This document shows, one piece after another, positions 246 through 21,532 of a stretch of 41,377 bases of DNA (within the stretch, counting starts at the first letter, position 1; each line of letters opens with the position of its first letter). Position numbers and translations under genes: made by a program. The notes under the pieces were generated by a model. The model did no database searches and had not been told where the DNA came from. It saw nothing but the letters and a program-made list of their open reading frames with translations. Source of the stretch: Myxococcota bacterium. Its GTDB lineage: Bacteria > Myxococcota_A > UBA796 > UBA9615 > JAKLKC01. Where the stretch lies: the NCBI GenBank assembly GCA_023150875.1, contig JAKLKC010000056.1, positions 1 through 41,377 of the forward strand, read 5' to 3'.

Positions 246-563
246 TCGCGGCGTTCTCGCCGGTGACTCTTGGCGCGTTGGCGCGCCCCTGCCGCCGGCG
301 CAGGATCCGCCGCGCCGGGATCCGCGACGCCCACGAACCGGGACGCGGACTCGGGAACGGGGCGACTCTCCCCGCGGCGAAGTGCCAGTCCGTCGTTCCA
401 GACCAAGTCCCCAGTTTCCGAGTTCGTACCCCGGGTCATCGGCGTCGGGGTGGTGAGGGGGGCTCCAGGCCCATCGACCTGGAACGCGGCCCCTCGCCCT
501 CCCCCAATGAGCGCCCCCCCGGAGTACACTCGCCCGCCCACTTCGCCGCCGGAGCCCTCCCCC
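246..563. other. Intergenic region, probable promoter of the hydrolase gene
   Basis: I see no convincing gene here: the open frames look like GC-rich noise and lack Shine-Dalgarno sequences. A -10-like TACACT at 525-530 lies about 33 nt upstream of the ATG at 564, but no clear -35 is visible. Confidence 0.35.
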
Positions 564-2519
564 ATGTCCCGCCCCGCCGCCCTCGCCGCCCTCGCCGCGG
601 CCCTCCTCGCCCTGCCCTGCGCGTGCGGGGAGCCCGAGGGGGACGGCGACACCGTCCCCGCCGACGACGACACCGGGCCCGAGCCCATCACCGGGATCCC
701 CAACCTGCCCGGGGGCAATCCGCTGGTGCCCGAGGTCGCCCTCTACCCCTGGCCCTCGGACTACTACCTGGTGGAGGACGCCGCCACCCCTACCGGGCGG
801 CGGGTCGAGCTCCCCGCCGAGGCCATGCCCGGCGACCTGTCCCCGGACGTGGTGGCGGGGCACGACGGATTCACGCGGATCCCGGCGATCCTGGCGTACT
901 TCGAGGGGGGGATCGACCCCTCCTTCCTCCCCGACGCCGACGATCCCGGGGCGTCCCTGGCGTCCGACTCCCCGGTCCTCCTGCTGCGGGAGGGGGACTG
1001 GGAGCCCGTGCCGGTGCTGGCGGAGCTGGACCTCAACGCCGCCTCCCCCGCCGAGCAGGCCCTGATCCTGCGGCCCCACGTCCCCCTGGAGCCGGGCACG
1101 GGGTACGCGGTGGTCCTCACCGACGCCCTCCGGAGCGCCGACGGCTCGGGCCCGCCCCCCGTCACCGACGCCTTCCGGGCCCTCCGGGACGGGATCCCCA
1201 CCGACAGCGCCGAGGTCGAGGCCCAGCGGGACGACTTCCGGCTGGTCCTGGACGCCCTGGAGGGGGTGGGCCTGGACCCCGCCCGAGCCGTCCTGGCCTG
1301 GAGCTTCCACACCCGCTCCGAGGAGCAGGTGGTCGCTCCCCTCCTGGCCATGCAGGACGCGGCGATGGCGGCGCCGACGTCGTCCTACGCCATCACCTCC
1401 GACGCCTGGGAGGGGGACGGATCGGACCGGATCGTGGAGGGGACCTTCACCGCCCCGGACTTCCTGGGGGACGACCACCGGATCCAGCTCGACGCCCAGG
1501 GGGTGCCGGTGCAGAGGGGCACCCGGGAGGTGCCGTTCGTGCTGACCATCCCCTCCTCCATCGACTCCGGGCCCCGCCCCTTCGTGCTGGCGGGCCACGG
1601 CTTCTTCTCCACCCGTTACGAGCCCACCTGGGGGTCCATGAACGACCTGCTCCACCGGGCCCGCATGACGGCGGCGTCCACGGACTTCATCGGCTTCAAC
1701 GAGGACGACCTCCCCTCCACCCTGGCGGTGCTGGGGGACCTCTCGCGCCTGGGAGTGGTCATCGACGAGCAGCTCCAGTCCCACGTGGACTTCACGGTGC
1801 TGGCCCGCCTGGTGCGGGAGGAGCTGGCGGACGAGGTCGTCTCCGGCGAGGGGGCGGCGGCGTTCCCAATCCTCGATCCCGACGCCCTCGCGTGGATCGG
1901 CGCCTCCAACGGCGGCACCCAGGGGCTGGTCCAGATGGCGACCTCACCCCAGCTCACCCGGGGGGTGCTCGTCGTCCCCGGGGGCGGCTGGACCCACATG
2001 CTCCAGAGGGCGACCCAGTGGACCAGCCTCGGAGCCCTGGTGGAGCTCCAGTACCCCGATCCCCTGGACCTCCAGCTCGCCATGGGGATCCTCCAGAACG
2101 TCTTCGATCCCGCCGACTCCCTGAACTACGTGTCCCACCTGGTGGACGACCGCTTCCCCGGCCGCCCCGAGGTCCGCGTCACCCTCCACGAGGCCGTCGG
2201 CGACTGCCAGGTCTCCAACCTGGTCACCGAGTGGGTGGCCCGGCAGGCGGGGATCCCCCTGGTGGTCCCCTCCCCGGTGGAGATCTGGGGCCTGGACACC
2301 GTGGAAGCGCCCGCCCCGGGCGGCACCCCCGTTGCGGGCGCCCTGTTCGTCTACGACGAGGGTTACCCTCCCGTCCCCGAGGGGAACGTCCCTCCCCCTG
2401 ACGACAACGGCGCCCACGGCAGCGTGCGGGGTCTCGACGTGTACCAGGAGCACGTCACCACCTTCCTGGAGACCGGCGCCATCGTCCAGGTCTGCGACGG
2501 GGCCTGCGATCCCGACTGA
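564..2519 (+). CDS. Secreted alpha/beta-hydrolase-like (lipase-type) lipoprotein
   Basis: 651 residues. The ATG at 564 was chosen because it opens directly into a secretion signal (MSRPAALAALAAALLALPCAC). The Cys pair at the end of the hydrophobic core suggests lipid attachment, although the lipobox is not canonical. An Asp/Pro-rich linker follows. A GASNG nucleophile elbow places the candidate catalytic Ser at residue 448, and a C-terminal AHGSVR motif gives a candidate catalytic His at 618. The N-terminal half, with WPSDYYLVED and ILAYFEGG, matches the architecture of large predicted secreted hydrolases of myxobacteria. The substrate cannot be told from sequence, and esterase or lipase activity is inference. 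The gene is monocistronic: the next start at 2614 has its own Shine-Dalgarno. Confidence 0.72.
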   Translation: MSRPAALAALAAALLALPCACGEPEGDGDTVPADDDTGPEPITGIPNLPGGNPLVPEVALYPWPSDYYLVEDAATPTGRRVELPAEAMPGDLSPDVVAGHDGFTRIPAILAYFEGGIDPSFLPDADDPGASLASDSPVLLLREGDWEPVPVLAELDLNAASPAEQALILRPHVPLEPGTGYAVVLTDALRSADGSGPPPVTDAFRALRDGIPTDSAEVEAQRDDFRLVLDALEGVGLDPARAVLAWSFHTRSEEQVVAPLLAMQDAAMAAPTSSYAITSDAWEGDGSDRIVEGTFTAPDFLGDDHRIQLDAQGVPVQRGTREVPFVLTIPSSIDSGPRPFVLAGHGFFSTRYEPTWGSMNDLLHRARMTAASTDFIGFNEDDLPSTLAVLGDLSRLGVVIDEQLQSHVDFTVLARLVREELADEVVSGEGAAAFPILDPDALAWIGASNGGTQGLVQMATSPQLTRGVLVVPGGGWTHMLQRATQWTSLGALVELQYPDPLDLQLAMGILQNVFDPADSLNYVSHLVDDRFPGRPEVRVTLHEAVGDCQVSNLVTEWVARQAGIPLVVPSPVEIWGLDTVEAPAPGGTPVAGALFVYDEGYPPVPEGNVPPPDDNGAHGSVRGLDVYQEHVTTFLETGAIVQVCDGACDPD

Positions 2520-7121: not shown

Positions 7122-7679
7122 TCACTGGAGCTCGCCGGCGGCGGCGGCCTTCCGGAGGGTCTCCTCGATCAGGGTGAGGCAGCCCGGGGCCGTGCCCTCC
7201 ATGATGGCGTGGCCCGCGGCCCGGTAGGCCCGGAGCAGGTCGTCGGCGGCCCGCGCCTCCTCCCCTAGGGCGAAGTGGACCTGCCCCTTCAGGCGGTGGG
7301 CCCAGGGGTTGCCGAAGACGCCGGGGCTCCACATCGCGTCGCTCAGGACCTGGCGGGCCAGGGGCCAGGCGGACTGCGCCACGGCGGCGTGCCCCAGCGC
7401 CAGGAGCAGCCAGCCGGCGGCGTTCCATCGCCCGAGGGGCTCGGGCAGGAGCCGCAGCGCCTCCAGGAACCGGGCCTGGGCCTTGGCGAACTTCTTCTCG
7501 CGCATCCAGAGGCCCCCCAACTCGCCGGCCTCCTCGATCTCCGCGAACTTCTCGGGGGGCAGCGAGTCGACCTCGGCCTGGTCGTCCCGGCGCCAGATCC
7601 CCAGCGGATCCTGGACACCGGAGCGGGCGTCCAGCACCGTCCAGGGATGCTGCTCCGTCCGGAACTGGGTGGGAGTCAT
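7122..7679 (-). CDS. TPR-type protein, last gene of the nar series
   Basis: 185 residues, helical, with repeats of TPR character: ELGGLWMREKKFAKAQARFLEALRLLP, then a WxLAR/GNPWAHRLKGQVHFALGEEARAADDLLRAYRAAG pair. A GAGGA lies 8 nt before the ATG at 7679. It starts 34 bp after the narK2 stop in the same direction, so it is probably co-transcribed. TPR proteins mediate protein contacts, and a role in assembling or regulating the nitrate system is only suggested by position. The TPR call itself rests on pattern only. Confidence 0.6.
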   Translation of the reverse strand: MTPTQFRTEQHPWTVLDARSGVQDPLGIWRRDDQAEVDSLPPEKFAEIEEAGELGGLWMREKKFAKAQARFLEALRLLPEPLGRWNAAGWLLLALGHAAVAQSAWPLARQVLSDAMWSPGVFGNPWAHRLKGQVHFALGEEARAADDLLRAYRAAGHAIMEGTAPGCLTLIEETLRKAAAAGELQ

Positions 7680-7713
7680 GCTCGGGTCCTCGAAGGGTCG
7701 GGGGCGCCCCCTC

Positions 7714-9345
7714 CTAGCAGGGGACCTCGGCGTTCTTCCGGGCGTAGAACCACCAGTTCAGCACCAGGCAGGTCGCGTAGTACACCGCGAACCCGTAGAG
7801 CGCGTATTGCGGGGTGCCCGCCTGGATCTGCGCCGCGAAGACCTTGGGGATCAGGTAGGCGCCGTAGGCGGCGATGGCGGAGGAGAAGCCCAGCACCGGC
7901 CCCCGCTGGTCCTTGTCGAAGATCACCCCGATCATCCGGAAGGTGGAGCCGTTCCCGATGCCGGTGGTGGCGAACAGGAACACGAAGACCGCCAGGAAGG
8001 GCACGAAGTACTTCTGGGGCTCCGGGGACTCCATCGCAAGGGAGACGATGTACCCGGCCCCGATGGTGGCGAAGACCATCAGGACCGTGTCCCAGTGGGT
8101 CACCCGGGCACCCCCGAACTTGTCCCCCAGCCAGCCCCCCACGGGCCGGATCAGGGCGCCCACCCCCGCGCCGATGAAGATGTACGCCGCCGAGGAGAGG
8201 CCCGTCGGCTGCCCTGCGTGGGGACCCGCCTGGACCACCCCGAAGACGTCGTCGATGAGCTTGGGGAAGGCGTTGGAGTAGCCGATGAACGACCCGAAGG
8301 TCATCACGTACAGGTAGGTCATGACCCAGTTGTGCTTGAGGCCGAAGATGGAGAACTGCGCCTTGAGCGGCTCCTGGATGGCGCGGGGCGTCAGGTAGCG
8401 CATCCCGCCGAGGGTGACCGCCACCGCCACCACCGCGACGATGAGGGTCTTGAGCAGGTCCGGGAACCCTCCCCAGGGCACGACCAGCAGCGCGATGGCG
8501 ATCCCGGCTCCGGCGAGACCGATCACGGTCAGCCACAAGCACTTGCCCAGGGCGATGGGCGCCGGCCCACACTTGTGGAAGGGCAGGTTGTCCATCAGGA
8601 ACCAGGTCAACACCACGACCGTCACCAGGATCGGCACCCACACCAGGCCCGCGTTCTGGACCCACATGGAGGCGGTACCCGCCCCGGCGGCGTACTCGTA
8701 GGGCTTCCCGCCGAGACGGCCGAACAGGCCGAAGGTAATGACCCAGGGGATCAGGAACTGCATCAGGCTCACGCCGAGGTTGCCGAGCCCGGCGTTCAGG
8801 CCCAGGGCGAGGCCCTGCATCCTCTTCGGGAAGAAGAAGCTGATGTTGGACATCGACGACGCGAAGGCGCCGCCGCCGACCCCCGAGAGGGCGGCCAGGA
8901 CCAGGAACACGGTGAAGGGAGTCGTCGGGTCCTGGAGCGCGATCCCCGCCCCCAAGGAGGGCAGGATCAGCAGCACCGTGGTCAGGAACTTGACGTTCCG
9001 GCCCCCGCTGATGGCGATCATGAAGGAGTGGGGGATCCGCAGGGTCGCCCCGGCGAGCCCCGCGACGGCGGGCAGGAGGAACATCAGCCCCCGGTACCCC
9101 GCCTCGTCGTAGGGCTGCCCCCCGTTCATGAAGGTGAAGTCGAACGCCTTGCCCCCGGTGGCGAAGTGGAGCTGCTGGACGTACTTCGCCACCATCCCCC
9201 AGTAGATCCAGATGGCGAACCCGAGGAGGAGGTTCGGGATGGACACCCAGAGGTTGCGGCTGGCGACCCGCTTCCCCGTGCGGGCCCAGAAGCCCTCGTC
9301 CTCGGGGTCCCAGTACTCGGGCCACTCCTTACCCTGCGTCCTCAT
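7714..9345 (-). CDS. narK2: NarK2-type nitrate/nitrite transporter (MFS)
   Basis: 543 residues with 12 membrane segments and the long N-terminal extension (WDPEDEGFWARTGKRVASRNLW) typical of NarK2-type porters. The nitrate signature GLNAGLGNLGVSLMQFLIP is at 182-200. Substrate-binding Arg candidates are in TM2 (LRIPHSF, R103) and in the IRPVGGWLGD helix. Established knowledge: NarK2-type carriers mainly exchange nitrate for nitrite. The ATG at 9345 overlaps the narK1 stop in an ATGA and has GGGAGC upstream, so the two are translationally coupled. It sits beside NarK1 in the nar operon, as in many denitrifiers. Confidence 0.9.
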   Translation of the reverse strand: MRTQGKEWPEYWDPEDEGFWARTGKRVASRNLWVSIPNLLLGFAIWIYWGMVAKYVQQLHFATGGKAFDFTFMNGGQPYDEAGYRGLMFLLPAVAGLAGATLRIPHSFMIAISGGRNVKFLTTVLLILPSLGAGIALQDPTTPFTVFLVLAALSGVGGGAFASSMSNISFFFPKRMQGLALGLNAGLGNLGVSLMQFLIPWVITFGLFGRLGGKPYEYAAGAGTASMWVQNAGLVWVPILVTVVVLTWFLMDNLPFHKCGPAPIALGKCLWLTVIGLAGAGIAIALLVVPWGGFPDLLKTLIVAVVAVAVTLGGMRYLTPRAIQEPLKAQFSIFGLKHNWVMTYLYVMTFGSFIGYSNAFPKLIDDVFGVVQAGPHAGQPTGLSSAAYIFIGAGVGALIRPVGGWLGDKFGGARVTHWDTVLMVFATIGAGYIVSLAMESPEPQKYFVPFLAVFVFLFATTGIGNGSTFRMIGVIFDKDQRGPVLGFSSAIAAYGAYLIPKVFAAQIQAGTPQYALYGFAVYYATCLVLNWWFYARKNAEVPC

Positions 9346-11036
9346 GCCTTGCTCCCGCCGACCTCGCGTTGTTCGTCCGCCGTAGCCACCACGCACGCCC
9401 CCAGGCAGGCGGAATTCCCCACGGGATCTCCCGACAACGAACACGCGCCGACCCGAGTCCCGGAGCCCGGCGCGGTGCCCCCCAGGAGCCGGACCCGGGC
9501 CCGGGTGCCATGGACGGGGCAGACCAGCGCGAGGGCCACGGAGCGCCCCGGCTCGACGTCCTCGATGCGCTGGGCGATGTCGGGCGCGCGCCGGGCGGTC
9601 ATCTTGCGGATGGTCCAGTGCATCCACACCAGGCAGACCACCGACAACACCGCGAAGAACACCCAGGTGGTGGTCCACAGGCCCGTGCCCCGCAGCAGGT
9701 ATCCGAAGACGATGGGGCAGACGAAGCCGCCCAGGCCGCCGATCACGCCCACGATCCCGCCGACGGTCCCGACGTCGTTGGGGTAGTAGTCCGGAATGTG
9801 CTTGTATACCGCGGCCTTGCCGATGCCCATCAGGATCCCGATGACGAACACCAGCACGGTGAAGACCCAAACGTTGGCCTGGAAGAAGATGTGGGTGTCG
9901 CCCCGGGCGAGGAGCTGCTTCTTCTGGACCGTATCCCCCACCTGGACGACGGGCACCTGGCCGAAGGACCGGGCGGGCCAGATCAGGACCTCCGGCTCCG
10001 CGATCGCCTCGGTGGGCTTGGGCTGGAGGGCGTACCGGGTGTCCCCGACCTGCACGAAGTCCGGCCCCACGGCGGTGACCGTCCCCGCCCGGGTCGCCAT
10101 CACCCCCTCGCCCGGCGTGTAGAGGTCCATCCGGGGCACCACCAGAGCCACGCTGCACAGGGCGCAGCCCCCCAGGATCCAGTACATCACCGCCCGGGCG
10201 CCGAAGCGGTCGGACATCCAGCCCCCGAGGGCCCTGATCACGCCGGAAGGGAGGGAGAAGATGGAGACCAGGAGGCCCGCGGTGACGATGGAGACGCCGT
10301 AGGCGTTGACGTAGTAGGGGATGAGCCACTGGGCCAGGGCGACGAAACCGCCGAAGACCAGGAAGTAGTAGAGCCCGAAGCGCCAGACCCGGACCTTCCC
10401 CAGGGGTGCCAGGCGCTGCGCCAGCGACCGCGTCGCCCCCTCCTGGGGCTTGCGGTTGACGGTGGAGACCCAGAAGAGCGCGGAGGTCACCAGCAGCACC
10501 AGGGCGTAGATCCGCGGCAGGGCGCGCCAGCGCTCGAGGTCCTGCCCGTCCCGGGTCAGCACCCCGAGGAGCCAGGGGGCGCCGAGGGTGGTGAGGGCCG
10601 CCCCGGCGTTGCCGGCGCCGAAGATCCCCAGGGCGGTCCCCTGCTGGGACTTGGGGAACCACACCGAGGTGAAGCCGATCCCCGCCGCGAAGCCCGTGCC
10701 CGCCAGTCCGAAGCCGAGCCCCCCGAGGAAGAAGCCCCAGAAGCCGTCCGCGAAGCTGCCGAGGAGGGCCGCCGCCGCGGTCATCAGCATCAGCACGGTG
10801 AAGACGGGGCGCCCCCCGAACCGGTCGGTCAGAAGGCCGACGGGGAGGCGCAGGACGGACCCCGTGAGCACGGGGACGCCGATCAGCCACCCCATCTCCA
10901 CCTTGCTGAACGCGAAGACGCCCCGGTCCACCAGGAAGGTGACCAGCACGCCGTTCATCATCCACACCGCGAAACACACCGTGAAGGCGAGGGTGTTCGC
11001 GATGAGGACGCGGTTCGCCGTGCGGTTCTCCGTCAC
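9342..11036 (-). CDS. narK1: NarK1-type nitrate transporter with beta-rich insert and Cys tail
   Basis: 564 residues. The GTG at 11036 is preceded by GGAGGA. It is an MFS nitrate/nitrite porter: GAGNAGAALTTLGAP (140-154) and GTVGGIVGVIGGLGGF (423-438) are the two nitrate signatures, with Arg63 and Arg268 as candidate anion ligands. Established knowledge: NarK1-type carriers are thought to act as nitrate/proton symporters. Two parts depart from the basic MFS fold. Residues about 305-385 form a Gly/Val-rich insert between membrane helices, ending in VVQVGDTVQKKQLLARG, which looks like a barrel-sandwich hybrid. Residues about 497-564 form a soluble tail with CPVHG, then ACS, SAC and GAC, a possible metal site. 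It follows narI by 28 bp and overlaps narK2 by 4 bp. Confidence 0.88.
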   Translation of the reverse strand: MTENRTANRVLIANTLAFTVCFAVWMMNGVLVTFLVDRGVFAFSKVEMGWLIGVPVLTGSVLRLPVGLLTDRFGGRPVFTVLMLMTAAAALLGSFADGFWGFFLGGLGFGLAGTGFAAGIGFTSVWFPKSQQGTALGIFGAGNAGAALTTLGAPWLLGVLTRDGQDLERWRALPRIYALVLLVTSALFWVSTVNRKPQEGATRSLAQRLAPLGKVRVWRFGLYYFLVFGGFVALAQWLIPYYVNAYGVSIVTAGLLVSIFSLPSGVIRALGGWMSDRFGARAVMYWILGGCALCSVALVVPRMDLYTPGEGVMATRAGTVTAVGPDFVQVGDTRYALQPKPTEAIAEPEVLIWPARSFGQVPVVQVGDTVQKKQLLARGDTHIFFQANVWVFTVLVFVIGILMGIGKAAVYKHIPDYYPNDVGTVGGIVGVIGGLGGFVCPIVFGYLLRGTGLWTTTWVFFAVLSVVCLVWMHWTIRKMTARRAPDIAQRIEDVEPGRSVALALVCPVHGTRARVRLLGGTAPGSGTRVGACSLSGDPVGNSACLGACVVATADEQREVGGSKA

Positions 11037-11064: not shown

Positions 11065-11793
11065 TCAGTTGTTCCTGGGGCGCGCCCTGCTCCACGCGGT
11101 GTTCGGGTCGCGGATGGCTCCGCGGTCCCAGTTCCACATCACCTGCTGGTAGGGCCTGGACAGGTAATGCAGGGGCGCGACGAAGATGTGCGCCAGCCGC
11201 GAGAAGGGCACCATGAAGATGAGCAGGAAGGCGCCGAAGATGTGGAGCTTGATCACCCACGGCAGCGCGTACACCGCCTCGGTCTCCGGCTTCAGGGCGA
11301 AGAGGGACCACAGGTAGGGCGAGAGGTCCGCGGCGAACCAGGAGGACCCCCACCGGTAGCCCAGCGCCACCCACAGCCCCAGGATGATCTGGGTGAGGAG
11401 CAACACCTCGACGGCGATGTCCATGCGGGTGGTGACCGCCCGGACGCGACTCTCCGTGAAGCGGCGGAACATCAGCGAGCCCAGTCCCACCAGCACGCTC
11501 AGCCCGAAGGCGAACGCGCTCACCTCCAGGATGATGAGCCGGACGGGCTCGGCGTTCCAGGCGAGGATGCTCGACGGCACCAGGAAGGCCAGCAGGTGCC
11601 CGGTCAGGATGATCAGCAGCCCCACGTGGAACGGCACCACGCCCCAGAAGAGCCTGCGGCCCTCCAGGAACTGCGAGGACAGGCTCGAGATGGTGAAGCC
11701 GCGATGCCGGTACCGGATCGCCAGGCCGATGACGAACACCAGCACGGCCGCGTAGGGAAAAGCGACGAAGAGAAAGGCGTTCAGTGCATTCAC
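11065..11793 (-). CDS. narI: Respiratory nitrate reductase gamma subunit NarI
   Basis: 242 residues from a GTG at 11793 preceded by GGGAGGAT. It is a five-helix membrane diheme cytochrome b. His56 and His66 (PFHVGLL, TGHLLAF) fall at exactly the same numbers as the known NarI heme ligands of E. coli. The second pair is His184 (KLHIFG) and His202 (LAHIFVAP). It passes quinol electrons to NarH. The C-terminus (MWNWDRG) matches the family. It lies 28 bp after narJ and 28 bp before narK1. Confidence 0.96.
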   Translation of the reverse strand: MNALNAFLFVAFPYAAVLVFVIGLAIRYRHRGFTISSLSSQFLEGRRLFWGVVPFHVGLLIILTGHLLAFLVPSSILAWNAEPVRLIILEVSAFAFGLSVLVGLGSLMFRRFTESRVRAVTTRMDIAVEVLLLTQIILGLWVALGYRWGSSWFAADLSPYLWSLFALKPETEAVYALPWVIKLHIFGAFLLIFMVPFSRLAHIFVAPLHYLSRPYQQVMWNWDRGAIRDPNTAWSRARPRNN

Positions 11794-11821
11794 GGGTTCA
11801 TCCTCCCTGGAGCCACGACGC

Positions 11822-12570
11822 TCACCGCTGCGAGCCGATGTCGATCAGCGCGGAAGGCCGTGCGCCTTCCCCGCGGTCTTCGATCTCCAGCTCGCGCTTG
11901 ATGGAGCGCAGGAAGTCGGTGCTGTGGCGCGGCAGCTCGGACTCGACGGCGCCGTATTCGGCCTCGAGCACGTTCGCCACCGCCATCAGCGGGAACTGGA
12001 ACATGGTGGGCCCCAGCGGCGACACGTCGATCAGCGTCTTGTGGTGCCGCCGATACATCGCGTCCCGCTGGGACATGCGCGCGGGATCGAACTCCCCGAT
12101 CATCTGCCGAAGGGCCGGCAGGACGACCTGCTGGACCAGCTCCCGGAGGATGTCGGCGTCCCCCCCCCGCGCCAGCAGGCGCAGGACGTTGGGGAGGTGG
12201 TCCGACAGCTCGGTGCCGCACTCCACGCCGGCGGCGCGGTGCTCGCGGTTCAGGTTGACGAGCATCTCGGCGCGCTTGTAGTCGTCGCCGAAGCACACGT
12301 ATCCCACGTCGAGGGTGGTGATGGCCTGCACCTCGAAGGAACGCGTGTAGAGCTCCTGGACCTCGTGGAGGGCTTCGTCCACGAGGACCCCTCCTTCGTG
12401 GGGAGGGAGCGACGACACGAAGCGCTCCAGCGCCGCCGCGGCCTCGGGGAAGCCTCCCCGCAGCCCCTCCACGGCCCGCGCGACGCGACCCGCGTAGTCC
12501 TCGCCCGGGTATACGAAGAGGTCCGCGAGGATCTCGAAGTGCGGGCGAGGGAGCTTGGATGCCTCCACGC

Positions 12571-12574
<4 letters not shown>
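11822..12574 (-). CDS. narJ: Nitrate reductase molybdenum cofactor assembly chaperone NarJ
   Basis: 250 residues. The ATG at 12574 overlaps the narH stop (ATGA), implying translational coupling. All-helical TorD/NarJ-family chaperone: FEILADLFVYPGEDY at the start, YTRSFEVQAITTLDVGYVCFGDDYKR (family motif ...FDL.....L.....YG.D..R) and HLPNVLRLLARG. It binds apo-NarGH, holds it off the membrane until the cofactor is inserted, and is not part of the final enzyme. Slightly longer than the E. coli protein. Confidence 0.93.
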
Positions 12575-14124
<1,550 letters not shown>

Positions 14125-14164
14125 GGCGTGGCCCTTCGGAAGTGAATGGGTGATCAGGCGAGCG

Positions 14165-17100
14165 TCACCAGACCAGCTTGTCCATGCGCTTCACGATGAC
14201 GTGGGTGTCGCGCTGGGGAGCGATGGGGCCCCAGTAGTTGAAGTGGTACGAGAACTGTCCGTAGCCCCCGGTCAGGAAGCTCGGCTTGAGGTGGATGCGG
14301 GTGAAGCTGTTGTGCCCACCCGCCCGCCGGTTGCCGCGGACCTGGGACTTGGGGATGCCGACGGTCCGCTCGGGCACGTGGTACACGATGCAGACCCCCG
14401 GCGGGATCCGGGCGCTGACGCTGGCCCGGGTGCAGTACACGCCGTGGTCGTTGTAGACCTCGCACCAGTCGTTGTCCTGGATCCCCAGCTTCTCCGCGTC
14501 CACCTCGCTGAGCCACACCGGCTCGCAGCCCCGGGAGAGGGTCAGCATCCGGTGGTTCTCCATGTAGGTGGAGTGGATGTGCCACTTCCCGTGGGGGGTC
14601 AGGCAGTTGAGGATCCGGGCCTGCCCGCCCTTGATGGTCTCCTTGAGGTCCCCGTAGGCCTCCGGCTTGGGCGCGGGCTTGTAGGTCGGCAGGTGCTCGC
14701 CGTAGGCGATGTACAGCTCGTGGTCCAGGTAGAAGTGCTGGCGTCCGGTGAGCGTCCGCCAGGGCACCAGCATGTCGACGTTGTAGGTGTAGGCGCAGTA
14801 CGCGCGCCCGTCGTTCATCAGGCCGGACCACAGCGGCGAGGTGTTGTAGCGCCGGGGCTGAGCCTGGAGGTCGTGGTAGCGGATGCGCACGTCGGCGCTG
14901 CCCGCCCCCAGGTGGACCAGGTCGAGCCCGGTCTTCTTGGAGGCGTTCTCGTAGGCGCGGACGTTCAGCTTGCCGTTGGTCAGGGCCGACAGGTGCAGGA
15001 CGGCGTTGCACGCCCACTCGTCCTCGCGGATCGACGGCAGGACCTTGTCGCCGCGCCGCTCCACGGGGAAGTGGTTGGACTCGATCATCTGGTCGTAGGC
15101 GTCGGCGGCGTCGAAGTGGTTGCCGTGGGCGCCGAGACCCTTCTGGCGGATCCCCTCGCCGAGGGTGACGTACTTGTCGAAGAGGGCCGTGTAGTCCCGG
15201 TCCTGCACGGTGATCTTGTGCATGGTCTTGCCGGGGATGGCCTCGCACTCGCCCAGGAACCAGTCCTTGACGTCCTTCTGGGCGGCTTCCCCCGCCGAGT
15301 CGTGCTCCAGGGGGGTGAGGATGACGTCCTTCTGGGGCTCGGGCAGGTACTTCTTCGCCGCCTCGCTGGTGTGCAGGCAGATGTCGCGGAAGATGTTCCA
15401 GTCCGACTTGGCCTCCCAGACCGGGGGGATCGCCGCCGAGAGGGGGTGGATGAAGGAGTGCAGGTCGGTGCTGTTCATGTCGGCCTTCTCGTACCAGGAG
15501 GCGGCCGGCAGGACGATGTCCGAGTAGAGCGCCGAGCTGTCCATGCGGAAGTTGAGGTTGACGATGAGGTCCATCTTCCCCTGGGGGGCCTGCTCCCTCC
15601 AGCGGACCTCCGCCGTGCGCTCCTCACCGTCCTTCCCGATGGCGTTGCTGTGGGTCCCGAGGTAGTGCTTGAGGCAGTACTCGTGCCCCTTCATGGAGCC
15701 CATGATCGCGTTGCCGCGCCAGATGTACCAGACGCGGGGGAAGTTCTCGGGCGACTCGGGGTCCGCGACGGCGTACTCGATCTCCTTGCTCTTGAGCTTC
15801 TGGAGCACGTACGCCTCGATCTCGGCGTCGGTCTTGGCCCCCTGGGCCTGGGCCGCCTTGCACAGCTCCAGCGTGTTCTGCTTGAACTGCGGGTAGAAGG
15901 GCATCCAGCCCATGCGCACGGACTTGTAGATGGTGTCCGCCGTGTGCATGCGGGTCCACTTGTTGTCCGGCACGGTGTTGTATCGGGAGAACTGACCGTC
16001 GTAGCGGTACTGGCAGGTGTTGATGTAGTGCCAGAGGGGGGCCTGCTGGAGGCGGACCGCCTTGTTGTGGTCCTTGCCGAAGGCGATGGCGGCCCACGAG
16101 TCCACCGGCGCCAGCTTCTCCTGGCCGACGTAGTGGTTGAGCCCGCCGCCGTTCTTGCCCACGCAGCCCGAGAGCATGAGGGCCATGGCCCCGGCGCGGT
16201 ACATCAGGTTGCCGTGGTACCAGTGGTTGATACCGGCCCCCACGATGATCATGCACTTGCCTTCGGTGACCATCGCGGTGTTCGCCCACTCCCGGGCGAA
16301 CTGGAGCACGGTCTTGCTGTCCACGCCGGTGAACAGCTCCTGCCAGGCGGGGGTGTAGGCGGCGTCCTTGTCGGTGTAGTCCGCCGGGTAGGCGCCCTTG
16401 AGGCCCCGGGACACGCCGTACTGCGCCATGATCAGGTCGTAGACGGTAGTGACGTACTCGGGCCCGTTGACGGTCTCCACCTGGATGACCGGGACGCTCC
16501 GCAGGACGTGGTTGTCCAGGCCGAACTCGGTGAACTCGGTCTGGGCCGCGCCCTTGGCCCGGCCCAGGAGGGTGAGGACCGGGTCGTAGGGCGAGTCGTC
16601 GGTGGCGTTCTCGTACTTCAGGTTCCAGTTGCCGGGCTTGGTGTCCCAGCGCGAGCCCGTGGTCCCCTTGGGGACGACGAAGCGGCCGGTCTCGGAGTCG
16701 ATGTTGACGAACTTCCAGTCGCCCTGGGAGATGTCCTTGTACTCCGCGAGCTCGTTGGCCCTCAGCAGGCGCCCGGGCCGGAAGTGGTCGCCGACGCTCT
16801 CCAGCTTCACCAGGAAGGGGCTGTCGGTGAACCGCTTGACGTACTCGATGAAGTACGGCGTCGGGTTCTCGTGGTGGAACTCCTTCAGGATCACGTGGGT
16901 GACCGCCATCCAGAAGGCGCCGTCGCTGCCGGCGTGGAGGGGCACCCACTGGTCGGCGTACTTGCAGACCTGGCTGAAGTCGGGGGCGAAGACCACGGCC
17001 TTGGTGCCGTTGTGCCGCGACTCCGCGAAGAAGTGGCAGTCGGGGGTGCGCGTCATGTTCAGACACGCACCCATGTCCGCGATCATCTTCGAGTTGTACC

Positions 17101-17779
17101 AGTCGGCGCTCTCGCAGACGTCGGTCTGCTCGCCCCAGATCTCGGGGAAGGCCGTCGGCAGGTCGCAGTACCAGTCGTAGAAGCTCAGGTTGATGCCGCC
17201 GAAGAGCTGGAGGAACCGGCCACCGGCGCCGTAGCTGAGCATCGACATCGCCGGGATCGGGGAGAAGCCGACCACCCGATCGGGGCCGTACTTCTTGGCG
17301 GTGTAGATGTTGGCGACGGACATGATCTCCTGGACCTCGTCCCAGGTCGTCCGCCGGAAGCCACCCTTGCCGCGGGCGGTCTGGTACCGCTTGCGGCCCG
17401 CCTCGTCGGCCTGCAGCGCCACCCAGGCCTTCATGGGATCGCCGGTCTCACGCTTCTTGGCGCGATACGCGTCGATGAGGGCCGAGCGGATCAGGGGATA
17501 CTTGATGCGGAGCGGGCTGTAGAGGTACCAGGAGTAGGAGATGCCGCGCTGGCAGCCGCGGGGCTCGTAGGGGGGGAGCTTGTCCTCCAGCAGCGGATAG
17601 TCGAGCTGCTGGGTCTCCCAGGTCACGATCCCGTCCTTGACGTGGATCTGCCAGGAGCAGCCTCCCGTGCAGTTCACGCCGTGGGTGCTCCGGACGATGC
17701 GATCGTGCTGAAACCGGTTCCGGTAGAACTCCTCCCACTTGCGGGTCTCGGGGGAGATGATGTCCTTGATCCAGCCCAT
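14165..17779 (-). CDS. narG: Respiratory nitrate reductase alpha subunit NarG
   Basis: 1204 residues, slightly shorter than E. coli NarG. It binds Mo-bis-MGD and reduces nitrate to nitrite. The FS0 [4Fe-4S] ligands are His33, Cys37, Cys41 and Cys76 ([15 protein letters not shown]), and Asp206 in WYCDLP is the molybdenum ligand; each is offset by 16 from the E. coli numbers. [38 protein letters not shown] and the closing [14 protein letters not shown] match the family closely. No twin-arginine export leader is visible, and the two NarK transporters also argue for a cytoplasm-facing active site. ATG 17779 has GAGAGAAGC upstream. A hairpin occupies the gap to the cytochrome gene. Confidence 0.97.
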
Positions 17780-17800
17780 GGCGCTTCTCTCGTGCGAGTG

Positions 17801-17824
17801 GCCCTACCCGCCGACGGGCAGGGC
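17801..17824 (-). other. Intercistronic hairpin between cytochrome c gene and narG
   Basis: GCCCT (17801-17805) pairs with AGGGC (17820-17824). Inside it, CCCG (17807-17810) pairs with CGGG (17815-17818) around a CCGA loop, with one mismatch. It lies in the 58-bp gap between two genes of the same operon, so it may set relative expression (mRNA processing or stabilization) rather than end transcription. Confidence 0.45.
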
Positions 17825-17837
17825 ACCGGGTCGGAGT

Positions 17838-18713
17838 TCAGTTGGAGGAGGTGATCTGGCGATCCGAGATGGCCTGGTAGACCGACTGCCGCTTACGGCC
17901 TCGCCAGAGGACGGTGTAGAACCCGAGGAGCAGCGCGGTGAATCCAGCCCCGCTGGCGGCCAGCTTCGGGCCGTAGTCCCGGGGCTGCTGCAGGGCGTGG
18001 TTGCGGTCCGAGAACTGGAGGAACGCCACCAGCGCGGACACCTCCTCCGGGGTCAGGGGCTTCTCCAGGTAGGCCCTCTGCATGACGGGGAACGGCGGGG
18101 CGCCGATGATCGACCGGACGCCTTGACCGCCGAGGCGGCCGAAGACGGTGGTGAGCTCCCGGGCCAGCACGCCGCCGCCGATGACGGCGTCGTGGACGAC
18201 CTCGTGGCAGGAGTTGCAGGACGGGCCGCCGTTCTTCGGCCTGGCCTTCCCCTGGAAGAGCGCCTGGCCGTGCTCGATCTCGGCCTGCGTCGGCTCCGCG
18301 GCCACCGGGGCCGCCGCCGGAGGCGTCAGGGCCCCGGTCGCGGCGGCGCCGCCACGGGTGTACTCGACGATGGACAGGACCTGGGCCTCGCTGAGGGGCT
18401 GGTCGGGCATCGGGATCGAGGCGTACTCCTTGAAGAGCGCCACCGCGGTCTCGTCCCCCGCCTTGACCATGGCCTGGGAGCCCTGGACGAAGCGGACGAT
18501 CCACTCCGGCGCCCTGCGGTCACCCACTCCGGCGAGGTCGGGTCCCACCAGCCTGCCGCCGCCGACGGTGTGGCATGCGGCGCAGTGGGTCTTGAAGAGT
18601 TCCTCCCCCGTCTGGGCCCGCGCCGGGGACGCTTGGGCCATCCCGATGAGGCCGGGGAGCACCAGCATGATCACCCGGGGGAGCGACCGAATGTCGAACC
18701 TCTTCCTCTGCAT
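17838..18713 (-). CDS. Membrane-anchored diheme cytochrome c of the nar operon (NarC-like)
   Basis: 291 residues. ATG 18713 has GAGGTGA upstream. An N-terminal signal segment ends near ASPARAQ (about 33). Two class-I cytochrome domains follow: CAACH at 44-48 with candidate axial Met102 (SIPMPDQPLS), and CNSCH at 166-170 with candidate Met211 (FPVMQRAYLEKPLTPEE). An Ala/Pro linker (123-142) joins them. A C-terminal membrane helix (about 253-270) with a basic end anchors it, hemes outside. It lies directly upstream of narG in the same direction. Thermus nar operons also begin with a diheme cytochrome c (NarC) needed for enzyme assembly and electron supply, and a similar role here is inference. 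Confidence 0.88.
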   Translation of the reverse strand: MQRKRFDIRSLPRVIMLVLPGLIGMAQASPARAQTGEELFKTHCAACHTVGGGRLVGPDLAGVGDRRAPEWIVRFVQGSQAMVKAGDETAVALFKEYASIPMPDQPLSEAQVLSIVEYTRGGAAATGALTPPAAAPVAAEPTQAEIEHGQALFQGKARPKNGGPSCNSCHEVVHDAVIGGGVLARELTTVFGRLGGQGVRSIIGAPPFPVMQRAYLEKPLTPEEVSALVAFLQFSDRNHALQQPRDYGPKLAASGAGFTALLLGFYTVLWRGRKRQSVYQAISDRQITSSN

Positions 18714-18753
18714 CGGCTCACCTCTGGCGGCGACACCTCGCCGACCGCGGGGG

Positions 18754-18786
18754 AGTCTAGGACAGGCTTCTTACACCCCACTTACA
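18754..18786 (-). promoter_or_regulatory. Candidate SARP-type operator and promoter of the cytochrome c-nar operon
   Basis: Read on the minus strand, TGTAAG at 18786-18781 is repeated exactly at 18775-18770, an 11-bp period. After 10 bases comes a -10-like TAGACT (18759-18754). The ATG of the cytochrome gene is 41 nt further on. Established knowledge: SARP/BTAD regulators bind direct repeats with about one-helical-turn (11-bp) spacing placed about 8 bp before the -10, standing in for a -35. The gene just upstream encodes such a regulator, and the first half-site overlaps its stop codon. Binding has not been shown. Confidence 0.5.
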
Positions 18787-20632
18787 TCCGTGCAGAAAGT
18801 CGCTCGCGGACGGAGTCGAAGCCCAGGTCCGTGCCCAGGTGCCGCATGGCGGGGCTTCGGGGCGCTCCGCTGGCGCGCCAGGCGGTCTGGAGGTAGGCCT
18901 CGTAGGCGGCGCGGGCCTCCTCGACCCGGCGGCCCCGCTGGAGGGCCTCCACCAGTCGCTGATGGGGGGCCTCCCGCAGCGGGTCGGCCTCGACCGCCTG
19001 GCGGAGCGCCAGCACGGCCCGGTCCGGCTCACCCCCGCGCTCGTAGAGGATGGAGAGCTGGACCAGCGCGTCGATGAACTGGTCCCGACAGGTCTCCCGC
19101 GCGGCGATGAACCACTGGCTGTCCAGGTCGTCCGCGAAGAGGTCGCCGCGGTAGAGGCTGACGGCGCGCTCCAGGAGGCGGAGCACCTCGGCGTCGCCCT
19201 CGCCCCGGGCGCGGGCGCCCCGGGCGGCGGCGAGCAGGTCCCGCCAGTCCCTGAGGTCCACGGAGCAGTTCGAGCCCAGGTCCAGGAAGAAGGTGTCCCC
19301 CTGGCTGAGGACGTAGTCCCACCGGCGGCCCGGGCGTTCGGGTTCCACCACCCGCCTCAGGTCGTGCATGGCCACGTGGAGGCTGCGGGCCCCCGCCTCG
19401 ATATCGGCGTCCGGCCAGAGGCGCTCCACCAGGGCGTCCCGGGAGATGGGCCTGCCCTGGCACAGGATCAGCGTCTTCAGGATGTCGACGGCCTTGGCCC
19501 GGGTGAAGGCGCGGCGGTGCACCATGAGGCCGTCGACGTACACCGTGAAGGGGCCGAAGCACTGGAGGCCGAGGTGGTGGGTGCCGGCCGCCGTCATGGG
19601 GGCGAGGATCGCCGGAAGGGCGGGCGGGGAGGGCTCCGGCCGCAGGTTCGCCGGGACGCTCCACTCCATGAAGAGCAGGGACGCCAGCAGGCGGGCGGGC
19701 GGCTCCGCCGGGGCCCTCCCCCAGGCGAGGCAGGCATAACCGTGGACCTCGCGCCCGCGCCGGAGCGGGACCTCCACCACCTGGGAGAAGCCCGTCGGCA
19801 CCGCGCATCGACAGGCGGACGGCCAGCTCCCCCTCGGGCCCGCCAGCACGAGGCCGCGCTTCAAGGAGTCGGACAGCGGGCAGGCGTCCGGGCCCGAGGC
19901 GGCGAGCCTGGGGCATAGCACGTGGGACGAGCCCGTCGAGCCGCAGTCGACGATGCCCCTGGCGTCGGGGTGCAGCAGCGCGATGCTCACCTCGTCGGCC
20001 TTGCTGAGGGCCCGGAGGCGCCTCGCCTGGTCCTGGAGCCACTCCGCCACGGGCCTCGCCCCGTCGACGGGGGTGGGTCCCTCCAGGTCCCCCCGGGCCG
20101 CCACCAGCGCGGTCGCCACGACGCGGGCGATGGCCTGGAGCAGGCGGATCCCGCGCTGCTCGGCGTCGTGGTGCGCGCCCTTCCATGCCAGGCTCAGGGT
20201 GCCCAGGAGCCTGTCCCCCCGCAGGAGCGGGGTCGCCGCGTAGGACCGGTAGCCCCGGGCCGGCACCGCGACACGCAGGTAGCGCGTGTCCTTGGCGAGG
20301 TCACCGCCGATCAGCGCGCGACGGGTCGCGGCGACGATCCCCGGGTAGCCGACGCCGGGCTCGAAGCGATCCAGGCTCCCGAAGGCGTCCGAGTCCGGGC
20401 CGGCGCACCCGGCGAGGCGCATCGCTCCCTCGCCCCGGTCCAGCAGGAACATCTCCGAGGCGTCGGCCCCCGCGCCGGCGCGGAGCAGCTCCAGCACGTC
20501 CCCCAGCCAGTCGGGGAAGGGCCGCGCTTCGGTGGCCTCGGCGACGCGCCCCAGCAGCGCGTACTCGGCGGCCGAGAGCGCCTTCTCGTCGGTGATGGGG
20601 ACGTTGCACGATGGCGGTGAGGGTGGGACCAC
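18782..20632 (-). CDS. GAF-GAF-winged helix-BTAD transcriptional regulator, probable nar activator
   Basis: 616 residues from GTG 20632; the Shine-Dalgarno is weak, so the start is uncertain by a few codons. Residues about 40-180 form a GAF domain (GYPGIVAATRRALIGGDLAKD, RSYAATPLLRGDRLLGTLSLAW). A second GAF-like domain (about 195-330) contains six cysteines: 230, 240, 251, 274, 276 and 301. Residues about 354-455 are an OmpR/PhoB-type winged helix (FGPFTVYVDGL, RDALVERLWPDAD). From about 460 to the end is a helical bacterial transcriptional activation domain (LYRGDLFADDLDSQWF, YERGGEPDRAVLALRQAVEADPLREAPHQRLVEAL). This SARP/BTAD half with GAF sensors recalls nitrate-respiration regulators in Thermus. 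Its position 68 bp upstream of the cytochrome gene suggests it controls nar. A Fe-S or thiol redox sensor in GAF2 is inference. Confidence 0.85.
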   Translation of the reverse strand: MVPPSPPSCNVPITDEKALSAAEYALLGRVAEATEARPFPDWLGDVLELLRAGAGADASEMFLLDRGEGAMRLAGCAGPDSDAFGSLDRFEPGVGYPGIVAATRRALIGGDLAKDTRYLRVAVPARGYRSYAATPLLRGDRLLGTLSLAWKGAHHDAEQRGIRLLQAIARVVATALVAARGDLEGPTPVDGARPVAEWLQDQARRLRALSKADEVSIALLHPDARGIVDCGSTGSSHVLCPRLAASGPDACPLSDSLKRGLVLAGPRGSWPSACRCAVPTGFSQVVEVPLRRGREVHGYACLAWGRAPAEPPARLLASLLFMEWSVPANLRPEPSPPALPAILAPMTAAGTHHLGLQCFGPFTVYVDGLMVHRRAFTRAKAVDILKTLILCQGRPISRDALVERLWPDADIEAGARSLHVAMHDLRRVVEPERPGRRWDYVLSQGDTFFLDLGSNCSVDLRDWRDLLAAARGARARGEGDAEVLRLLERAVSLYRGDLFADDLDSQWFIAARETCRDQFIDALVQLSILYERGGEPDRAVLALRQAVEADPLREAPHQRLVEALQRGRRVEEARAAYEAYLQTAWRASGAPRSPAMRHLGTDLGFDSVRERLSARM

Positions 20633-20657
20633 TTCAACCCCGCGACGTCGGGCCGGG

Positions 20658-20686
20658 AGGATACCGTCGGCGGCACGCGGGGTCTA
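20658..20686 (-). promoter_or_regulatory. Candidate promoter of the regulator gene
   Basis: On the minus strand, TAGACC (20686-20681) and TATCCT (20663-20658) are separated by 17 bp. Each matches 4 of 6 bases of the sigma-70 consensus. The implied start site lies about 20 nt upstream of the GTG at 20632, in the 102-bp gap that separates the regulator from the glycan cassette. Confidence 0.35.
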
Positions 20687-20734
20687 GTGTCTCGGGCGCC
20701 GGCGTGCAAGCGGAGAGGAAGGCGGGGGGGCCCC

Positions 20735-21532
20735 TCAGCCCGCGAAGACGCGGTCCAGGAAGCCGTCCACGGCGCGCACCACGAAGGCGTCGATGTCGGC
20801 AGGCTGCCAGGAGCGGGGGTTGCCCGCCAGGGTGGCCCTGCCGTAGAGGCGGCCGCCCCCGTCCTCCACCGCCAGGCTGATCCCGTCGGCCGCGGCGGTG
20901 GCGCGCAGCACCAGCACCGACGCGCGGGTCACCGGCGAGGGCCGAGGGCCGGGCTGGACCTGGAGCTCCACCAGCCGGGTGGGCGGGTGGAGGGACACCG
21001 ACAGCTCGTAGGGCCGGACGTCCCGCTGGCGGTGGAGGGCGGCGATCCGCTCCAGGGCGTCCCGGACCAGGTGGAGGGCCTGCTCCTCCTCGGGGGTCGG
21101 CGGCGGGGCGACGGCGCCGCCCCACCCTCCCCCGAACCCCACGCGACCCGGGCGGGGCGGCTCACCCCCCTCCCGCAGGGCCCGCCGGGCCACCAGGTCC
21201 TCGGGGGTCTCGGGAGGGGCGCCGGGGCCCTCGGCGGCGTCCCCGGCCTGACCGAGGGCGTGGGCCATCCGCCGCCAGGCGGGCGGCGGGAGGGGATCCG
21301 AGGAGGCGATCCGGGCGCGAAGGGCGTCGAGGCGGGAGAGGAGCTCGGACGGCGACACGGCGTTCTCCGGGCGCTCGGCAGCGCCCCCGAGGAAGGGGGA
21401 GGTCCCCCGGCCCGGACCCGGGTCCGGGCTCCCCTCCCCCGCCGGCGGGCCCCCCCCGACCGGCTGGAGGCGATGATAGCCTCCGGAACGCGGGCGCGAG
21501 GACGAAAGTTCGGGGAGGCGGCGAGAGGTCAC
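20735..21532 (-). CDS. Hypothetical protein coupled to the debranching enzyme gene, 265 aa
   Basis: GTG 21532 is strongly supported: AAGGAGGT, a perfect anti-16S match, sits a few bases upstream inside the end of the preceding gene, whose TGA overlaps the start. The N-terminal 60 residues are Pro/Gly/Ser-rich and probably disordered. Then comes a helical segment (SPSELLSRLDALRARIAS), a Gly/Pro linker, a second helical segment (ALHLVRDALERIAALHRQRD) and a beta-rich end (YELSVSLHPPTRLVELQVQ, GRLYGRATLAG, DIDAFVVRAVDGFLDRVF). No family is recognised. The cassette context suggests a role with storage or compatible polysaccharide metabolism. Confidence 0.7.
   Translation of the reverse strand: MTSRRLPELSSSRPRSGGYHRLQPVGGGPPAGEGSPDPGPGRGTSPFLGGAAERPENAVSPSELLSRLDALRARIASSDPLPPPAWRRMAHALGQAGDAAEGPGAPPETPEDLVARRALREGGEPPRPGRVGFGGGWGGAVAPPPTPEEEQALHLVRDALERIAALHRQRDVRPYELSVSLHPPTRLVELQVQPGPRPSPVTRASVLVLRATAAADGISLAVEDGGGRLYGRATLAGNPRSWQPADIDAFVVRAVDGFLDRVFAG

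Follow-up and report, generated by a model that had tools for sequence, protein, structure and literature searches.

The regulatory gene that precedes the nitrate reductase (nar) operon in the window, by which we mean the whole 41,377-nucleotide stretch analysed here, appears to encode a stand-alone DnrS-type activator that acts directly on the adjacent operon, a reading to which we assign a probability of about 0.7. Identity of 27-31% to the Thermus and Deinococcus homologues along the whole length (27% to Thermus DnrS) marks the protein, as judged from its sequence, as a distant relative of DnrS; it is probably a variant that works alone and senses oxygen or redox state through a cysteine-bearing GAF domain. 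DnrS was already known as a kind of regulator, and what seems to be new, as far as the accessible literature shows, is a nar-linked DnrS family beyond the Deinococcota and a version free of a CRP-family partner. In the open literature no report was found of the GAF2 cysteine set or of the operator described below for DnrS; priority on the cysteines is uncertain because subscription papers, including the 2007 description of DnrS, were not covered.

Protein architecture, the nar operon and relatives

Domain matches and structural comparison together establish a tandem GAF protein with a C-terminal SARP unit (winged helix-BTAD), and thus bear out the nar-adjacent GAF-GAF-winged helix-BTAD protein described in the first-pass annotation. 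The reading frame is intact, and its stop codon lies 68 bp from the start of narC, the first gene of a codirectional narCGHJI-narK cluster (Table 1). Pfam matched the first GAF domain, an OmpR-type winged helix (Trans_reg_C) and BTAD over the residues listed in Table 1; the second GAF domain of the window protein, taken alone, is too diverged and gave no Pfam match. A profile built from 34 homologous GAF2-region segments matched GAF structures, and 13 of the 34 members matched the Pfam family GAF_2. In the AlphaFold model (mean pLDDT 82.6) residues 195-321 form a second GAF-like alpha/beta domain, for which confidence is only moderate (pLDDT about 70-86). Foldseek ranked tandem GAF proteins as matches to the N-terminal half of the model, and paired the C-terminal half with the AfsR SARP domain in the transcription initiation complex (8k60 and 8hvr; TM by target 0.76-0.78).

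Table 1. Genes, protein regions and promoter elements of the window, in window positions unless residues (aa) are given
Feature	Position	Strand	Detail
dnrS-like gene	18782..20632	-	GTG start, 616 aa
Domains of the dnrS-like protein	aa 46-176; ~195-321; 379-432; 458-600		GAF1; GAF2; winged helix; BTAD/TPR
GAF2 segment (aa 186-340)	19613..20077	-	Cys240, Cys251, Cys274; Glu287 at fourth family Cys
Candidate DnrS operator	18786-18770	-	TGTAAG-TGGGG-TGTAAG, 11-bp direct repeat
-10-like box	18754..18759	-	TAGACT, 10 nt after second repeat
narC-like diheme c-type cytochrome	17838..18713	-	first gene after candidate operator
narG	14165..17779	-	TIGR01580, 1411 bits
narH	12571..14124	-	TIGR01660, 649 bits
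narJ-like chaperone	11790..12296	-	40% to Thermus NarJ over part of length; no Pfam match
narI	11065..11793	-	PF02665, E 8e-61
NarK-like transporter, 1087 aa	7714..10977	-	apparently two NarK/MFS units, single frame

Clusters that contain narC, such as that at 12571-18713, resemble the nitrite oxidoreductase clusters of nitrite oxidisers. Directly upstream of dnrS sits a 265-aa ORF (20735-21532), which is not counted in the system because Pfam gave no match for it and the compared loci of other genomes contain no homologue.

A same-class search at 1e-20 returned the window protein only, and just one GAF-BTAD protein of this kind was matched in its own genome; homologues were recovered with a profile of five DnrS-type sequences, the query containing no nar gene. 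They came from Thermus, Meiothermus, Calidithermus, Truepera, Chloroflexota MAGs, a Proteobacteria-labelled MAG, bacterium CPR1 and the window's own phylum, and nearly all of those with enough flanking DNA adjoin narC/narG. The nar-linked homologues span at least four phyla (Deinococcota, Chloroflexota, the window's own phylum and the Proteobacteria-labelled MAG), and homologues on Deinococcus plasmids adjoin a Mo-reductase cluster of another kind, which includes Rieske and NarK-type genes; a scan of viral contigs found nothing. In the tree, the deep branching of which is partly open, the nar-linked proteins of the window's own phylum form a single group of eight (support 96/93), and the window protein pairs with the G136 homologue (100/100). 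DnrS was found in 8/23 own-phylum genomes with NarG and went undetected in about 15/23, several of the DnrS-less nar loci sitting at contig ends; DnrS is therefore not obligatory for nar in this phylum.

In Thermus thermophilus DnrS combines GAF and BTAD domains, adjoins narCGHJIKT and is needed for nar transcription; its conformation changes with O2, and the authors place the oxygen sensor in the N-terminal GAF domain, stating that the sensor is not known and that attempts at in vitro study, including DNA binding, failed (PMC5748679, PMC6282519, PMC7694296). Oxygen is the signal linked to DnrS in Thermus, where nitrate sensing is assigned to DrpAB and the CRP-family protein DnrT works with DnrS (dnrST-narCGHJIKT). 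The window protein resembles Thermus DnrS in its GAF and C-terminal BTAD domains beside narC-narG, in aligning over the full length and in three cysteines of the GAF2 set. There are, however, several differences. Thermus dnrS is divergent from nar, whereas the window gene is codirectional with it; Thermus DnrS has an N-terminal PAS-like domain with four cysteines and DnrT as a partner, both missing from the window protein; and the window differs in having a Glu for the fourth GAF2 cysteine and an exact 11-bp repeat as operator candidate. Neither a DnrT-like gene nor a DrpA-type DUF2249 gene was matched in the window, and the absence of a CRP-type HTH from the window protein by Pfam places it outside the FNR and DNR families. 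Indeed no HTH_Crp_2 domain was detected in its own 98%-complete genome, a search that was positive in 14/14 control genomes, and FNR, DNR or DnrT are thus unlikely to be present in the host organism.

Cysteines of the second GAF domain

The protein contains cysteines at positions 9, 76, 230, 240, 251, 274, 276, 301, 358, 391, 456 and 515, among them the six that the first-pass annotation had correctly placed in the second GAF domain. When conservation was counted over 38 nar-linked homologues, three of these six proved near-invariant, Cys240 being conserved in 37/37 homologues with a residue there, Cys251 in 38/38 and Cys274 in 37/38. The remainder of the proposed set was not conserved: Cys230 and Cys276 recur in 2/18 and 2/36, respectively, in both cases the window protein and G136 only, and Cys301 (1/38) is confined to the window protein; Cys76, present in 3/37, is not conserved either. 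These counts rule out the six residues as a single conserved cluster. The family has a fourth cysteine just before a conserved ‘PL' (CLPL) strand, present in 34/38 linked homologues, shifted by one in G129/G238 and replaced by Glu287 in the window protein and G136. The window GAF2 has three of the four family cysteines, and Cys230 or Cys276 may stand in for the fourth in these last two proteins. A heme in GAF2 was considered and set aside, no conserved His being seen by eye in the alignment.

At least two of Cys240, Cys251 and Cys274 occur in 38/38 linked homologues versus 4/9 unlinked or contig-edge homologues (Fisher 8e-5, uncorrected for the relatedness of the sequences, some of which lie at contig ends), and homologues with no nar nearby mostly lack the set. 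The N-terminal module is variable: it is PAS-like with four cysteines of its own in Thermus, Meiothermus and Chloroflexota, is replaced by a response-regulator receiver in G153, G116, G297 and G128 (L036-L039), and is absent from the window protein, G136 and Deinococcus. The GAF2 cysteines are retained while this module changes, and because the module is exchangeable they are the only cysteine set common to all. Cys240, Cys251 and Cys274 are likely to form the sensing site.

The first-pass annotation had envisaged a redox, NO or nitrate sensor outside the classic two-component scheme. The oxygen or redox alternative draws support from the O2 response linked to Thermus DnrS, and there is no support for NO or nitrate. 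A nar activator of the non-two-component type with a cysteine site in GAF2 is supported; the published Thermus DnrS shares its domains and position. The exclusion of the two-component scheme holds for the window protein but not for the several homologues that carry a receiver, and as it holds equally for known DnrS the proposal describes a kind of regulator already on record.

Among other regulators of respiration or redox response, the Fe-S oxygen or redox sensor kinases NreB and AirS likewise have a four-cysteine site in an N-terminal sensory region. The window protein, in contrast, would be a one-component DNA-binding activator in which the histidine kinase domain and cysteine spacing of NreB/AirS were not found (C-X10-C-X22-C compared with C-X7-C-X-C-X17-C in AirS; PMC4601167). 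The NO sensor NorR is, like the window protein, a GAF-controlled activator, but contains, besides a mononuclear iron site, a sigma-54 AAA+ domain that is missing from the window protein.

A candidate operator ahead of narC

The repeat TGTAAG-N5-TGTAAG was first spotted by side-by-side reading of dnrS-narC gaps. In the window its first hexamer overlaps the dnrS stop codon TAA (18784-18782). The expected number of matches in the window is 0.01 when up to one mismatch is allowed, and the 6.92-Mb genome has no other exact copy of the repeat. With the period set to 11 bp, 21/31 DnrS-linked promoters match in at least 10/12 bases, compared with 0-5/31 when the same scoring was applied at other periods (6 to 22 bp), and none of 10 DnrS-less nar promoters of the window's own phylum reaches the score. 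Exact or near-exact repeats were found in own-phylum relatives, Dehalococcoidia, CPR1, Meiothermus, Calidithermus, Truepera and Deinococcus. An A stands at a fixed offset, 11 nt past the repeat, in 23/26 aligned sites, where it corresponds to position 2 of a TANNNT-like -10 box starting 10 nt downstream of the repeat; the -10 offset played no part in choosing the sites.

In SARP operators the direct repeats are spaced by 11 or 22 bp, and the last of them lies 8 bp from the -10 element (PMC10936776, PMC5930380). The window repeat and -10-like box fit this geometry: the period is 11 bp, and 10 nt separate the second hexamer from TAGACT. The likeness to the SARP activators AfsR and PimR therefore extends from the winged helix-BTAD unit to 11-bp direct repeats just before the -10 box. 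Unlike in SARPs, where this unit is N-terminal, it lies in the window protein at the C terminus behind two GAF domains; SARPs target antibiotic synthesis whereas the window target is respiration, with TGTAAG as the hexamer. TGTAAG-N5-TGTAAG is thus a candidate operator and the likely DnrS binding site, consistent with the direct action on the adjacent operon that had been proposed at first reading. A promoter/terminator consensus scan of 18600-20900 returned nothing, as expected because the promoter has a poor -35 element. Autoregulation of dnrS through the repeat was rejected, no site with up to one mismatch lying upstream of the gene.

In Thermus promoters the 11-bp repeat falls below the score (degenerate or absent), and because it is not significant there the same operator is not claimed for this genus. 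All eight Thermus promoters examined contain AGTRGNNGNNAG-N10-CANACT (AG-TRGNNG-NNAG-N10-CANACT), a look-alike with 10-bp spacing and an equal -10 distance. In Thermus and genera related to it (L002, L012, L018, L023, L024) the narC promoter is preceded by a GGACANNTGTCC-like palindrome, possibly a DnrT (CRP) site, that was not seen in the dnrS-narC gap of the window.

Similar sites were observed elsewhere. GTAAG-N6-GTAAG lies just before NarK-type genes in G297 and G128 (L051:2635, L051:18137, L052:3237, L052:18041), where these sites likely represent a small DnrS regulon, as suggested by the motif, and an exact TGTAAG-N5-TGTAAG precedes a large multihaem (CxxCH-rich) cytochrome-like ORF in G384 (L171:3558-3574). 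One exact copy, that of G217, falls within a predicted ORF and was taken as chance. Between operator and nar/nas operon in Deinococcota and Dehalococcoidia there is a small ORF with an xVMxLWxxxxGxWxGR-like core (L003:172-384, L004:238-435, L006:347-544, L007 ~7530-7770, L012 ~9350-9560; also L025, L009, L013 and L016), 65-75 aa long in Deinococcus; two Deinococcus copies gave no Pfam match, and no such ORF was seen in the window.

Alternative explanations and a proposed mechanism

It could be argued that the cysteines of GAF2 bind a structural Zn or are plain redox-active thiols, the signal being a small ligand bound by GAF1 or another domain. Three cysteines with a variable fourth ligand would suit Zn too, that ligand does differ in 4/38 linked homologues (Glu, or an Arg/Cys shift), and GAF1 is well conserved among homologues, with G95, P97 and G98 invariant. 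We nevertheless view this as unlikely, though it carries some weight, since a redox centre fits better with the published O2 sensitivity of Thermus DnrS and with the link to anaerobic respiration, and the cysteine set is mostly lost away from nar. We put less credence in the suggestion that TGTAAG-N5-TGTAAG is the site of a different winged-helix regulator, one of the OmpR/PhoB type, with DnrS acting indirectly. Such regulators also bind 11-bp direct repeats, so operators can look alike; the exact repeat is missing in Thermus; and the genome encodes at least 72 receiver domains, so that another regulator could also act on nar and two-component input may exist elsewhere. The presence of the site in DnrS-linked promoters of several phyla but in none of the 10 DnrS-less nar loci of the window's own phylum, its single exact genomic copy adjoining dnrS, and a -10 geometry that is that of SARP operators all argue, however, for DnrS as the cognate protein.

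That the operon encodes a nitrite oxidoreductase for nitrite oxidation, the regulator answering nitrite or redox state and not anoxia, seems a little more doubtful again: narG and narH score best with the equivalog models for nitrate reductase, well over cut-off, and NarK-type transporters, as well as another Mo-reductase cluster in Deinococcus, likewise accompany DnrS relatives. It should be emphasized, however, that narC-containing clusters of this type also serve as nitrite oxidoreductase in Nitrobacter (PMC7694296), and that family scores cannot tell the direction of an enzyme. Related genomes commonly encode GAF and BTAD proteins, and a generic GAF-BTAD regulator might thus lie beside nar by chance; with a single matching protein in the genome, and linkage, cysteine set and operator recurring across phyla, this can be given very little credence.

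Under the preferred reading, a DnrS-type protein acting directly on the operon, Cys240, Cys251 and Cys274 together with a fourth ligand (perhaps Cys276, Cys230 or Glu287) would hold an O2- or redox-labile centre. This would most likely be Fe-S, with a thiol/disulfide switch as the alternative, although an Fe-S centre as such in the window GAF2 is given slightly less than even odds. In anoxia the cysteine-ligated centre would assemble and remain intact, placing the tandem GAF in a permissive state and releasing the SARP-type activator. Next, two SARP units would occupy TGTAAG-N5-TGTAAG as neighbours, immediately before the -10 box, and bring RNA polymerase to narC in the manner of AfsR. Oxygen would disable the GAF2 site and so switch the operon off, with no CRP-family partner such as DnrT taking part.

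More tentatively, the family may represent a widespread, CRP-independent switch of respiration in which a single protein detects oxygen or redox state at a cysteine-ligated GAF centre and itself turns on nar, without intermediaries, from an 11-bp repeat of the SARP type; DnrT and the modules of PAS-like or receiver type would then be later additions in particular lineages. The analysis narrows the sensor candidates to three or four GAF2 cysteines and identifies a 17-bp candidate operator, both of which are directly testable, and GAF2 is a different sensor candidate from the N-terminal GAF domain favoured in the published work. The short repeat can be used in searches for DnrS regulons, in which narK and multihaem cytochrome promoters already appear. 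This study thus points to a route for the anaerobic control of nitrate respiration in lineages lacking FNR, for which no CRP-family partner would be needed.
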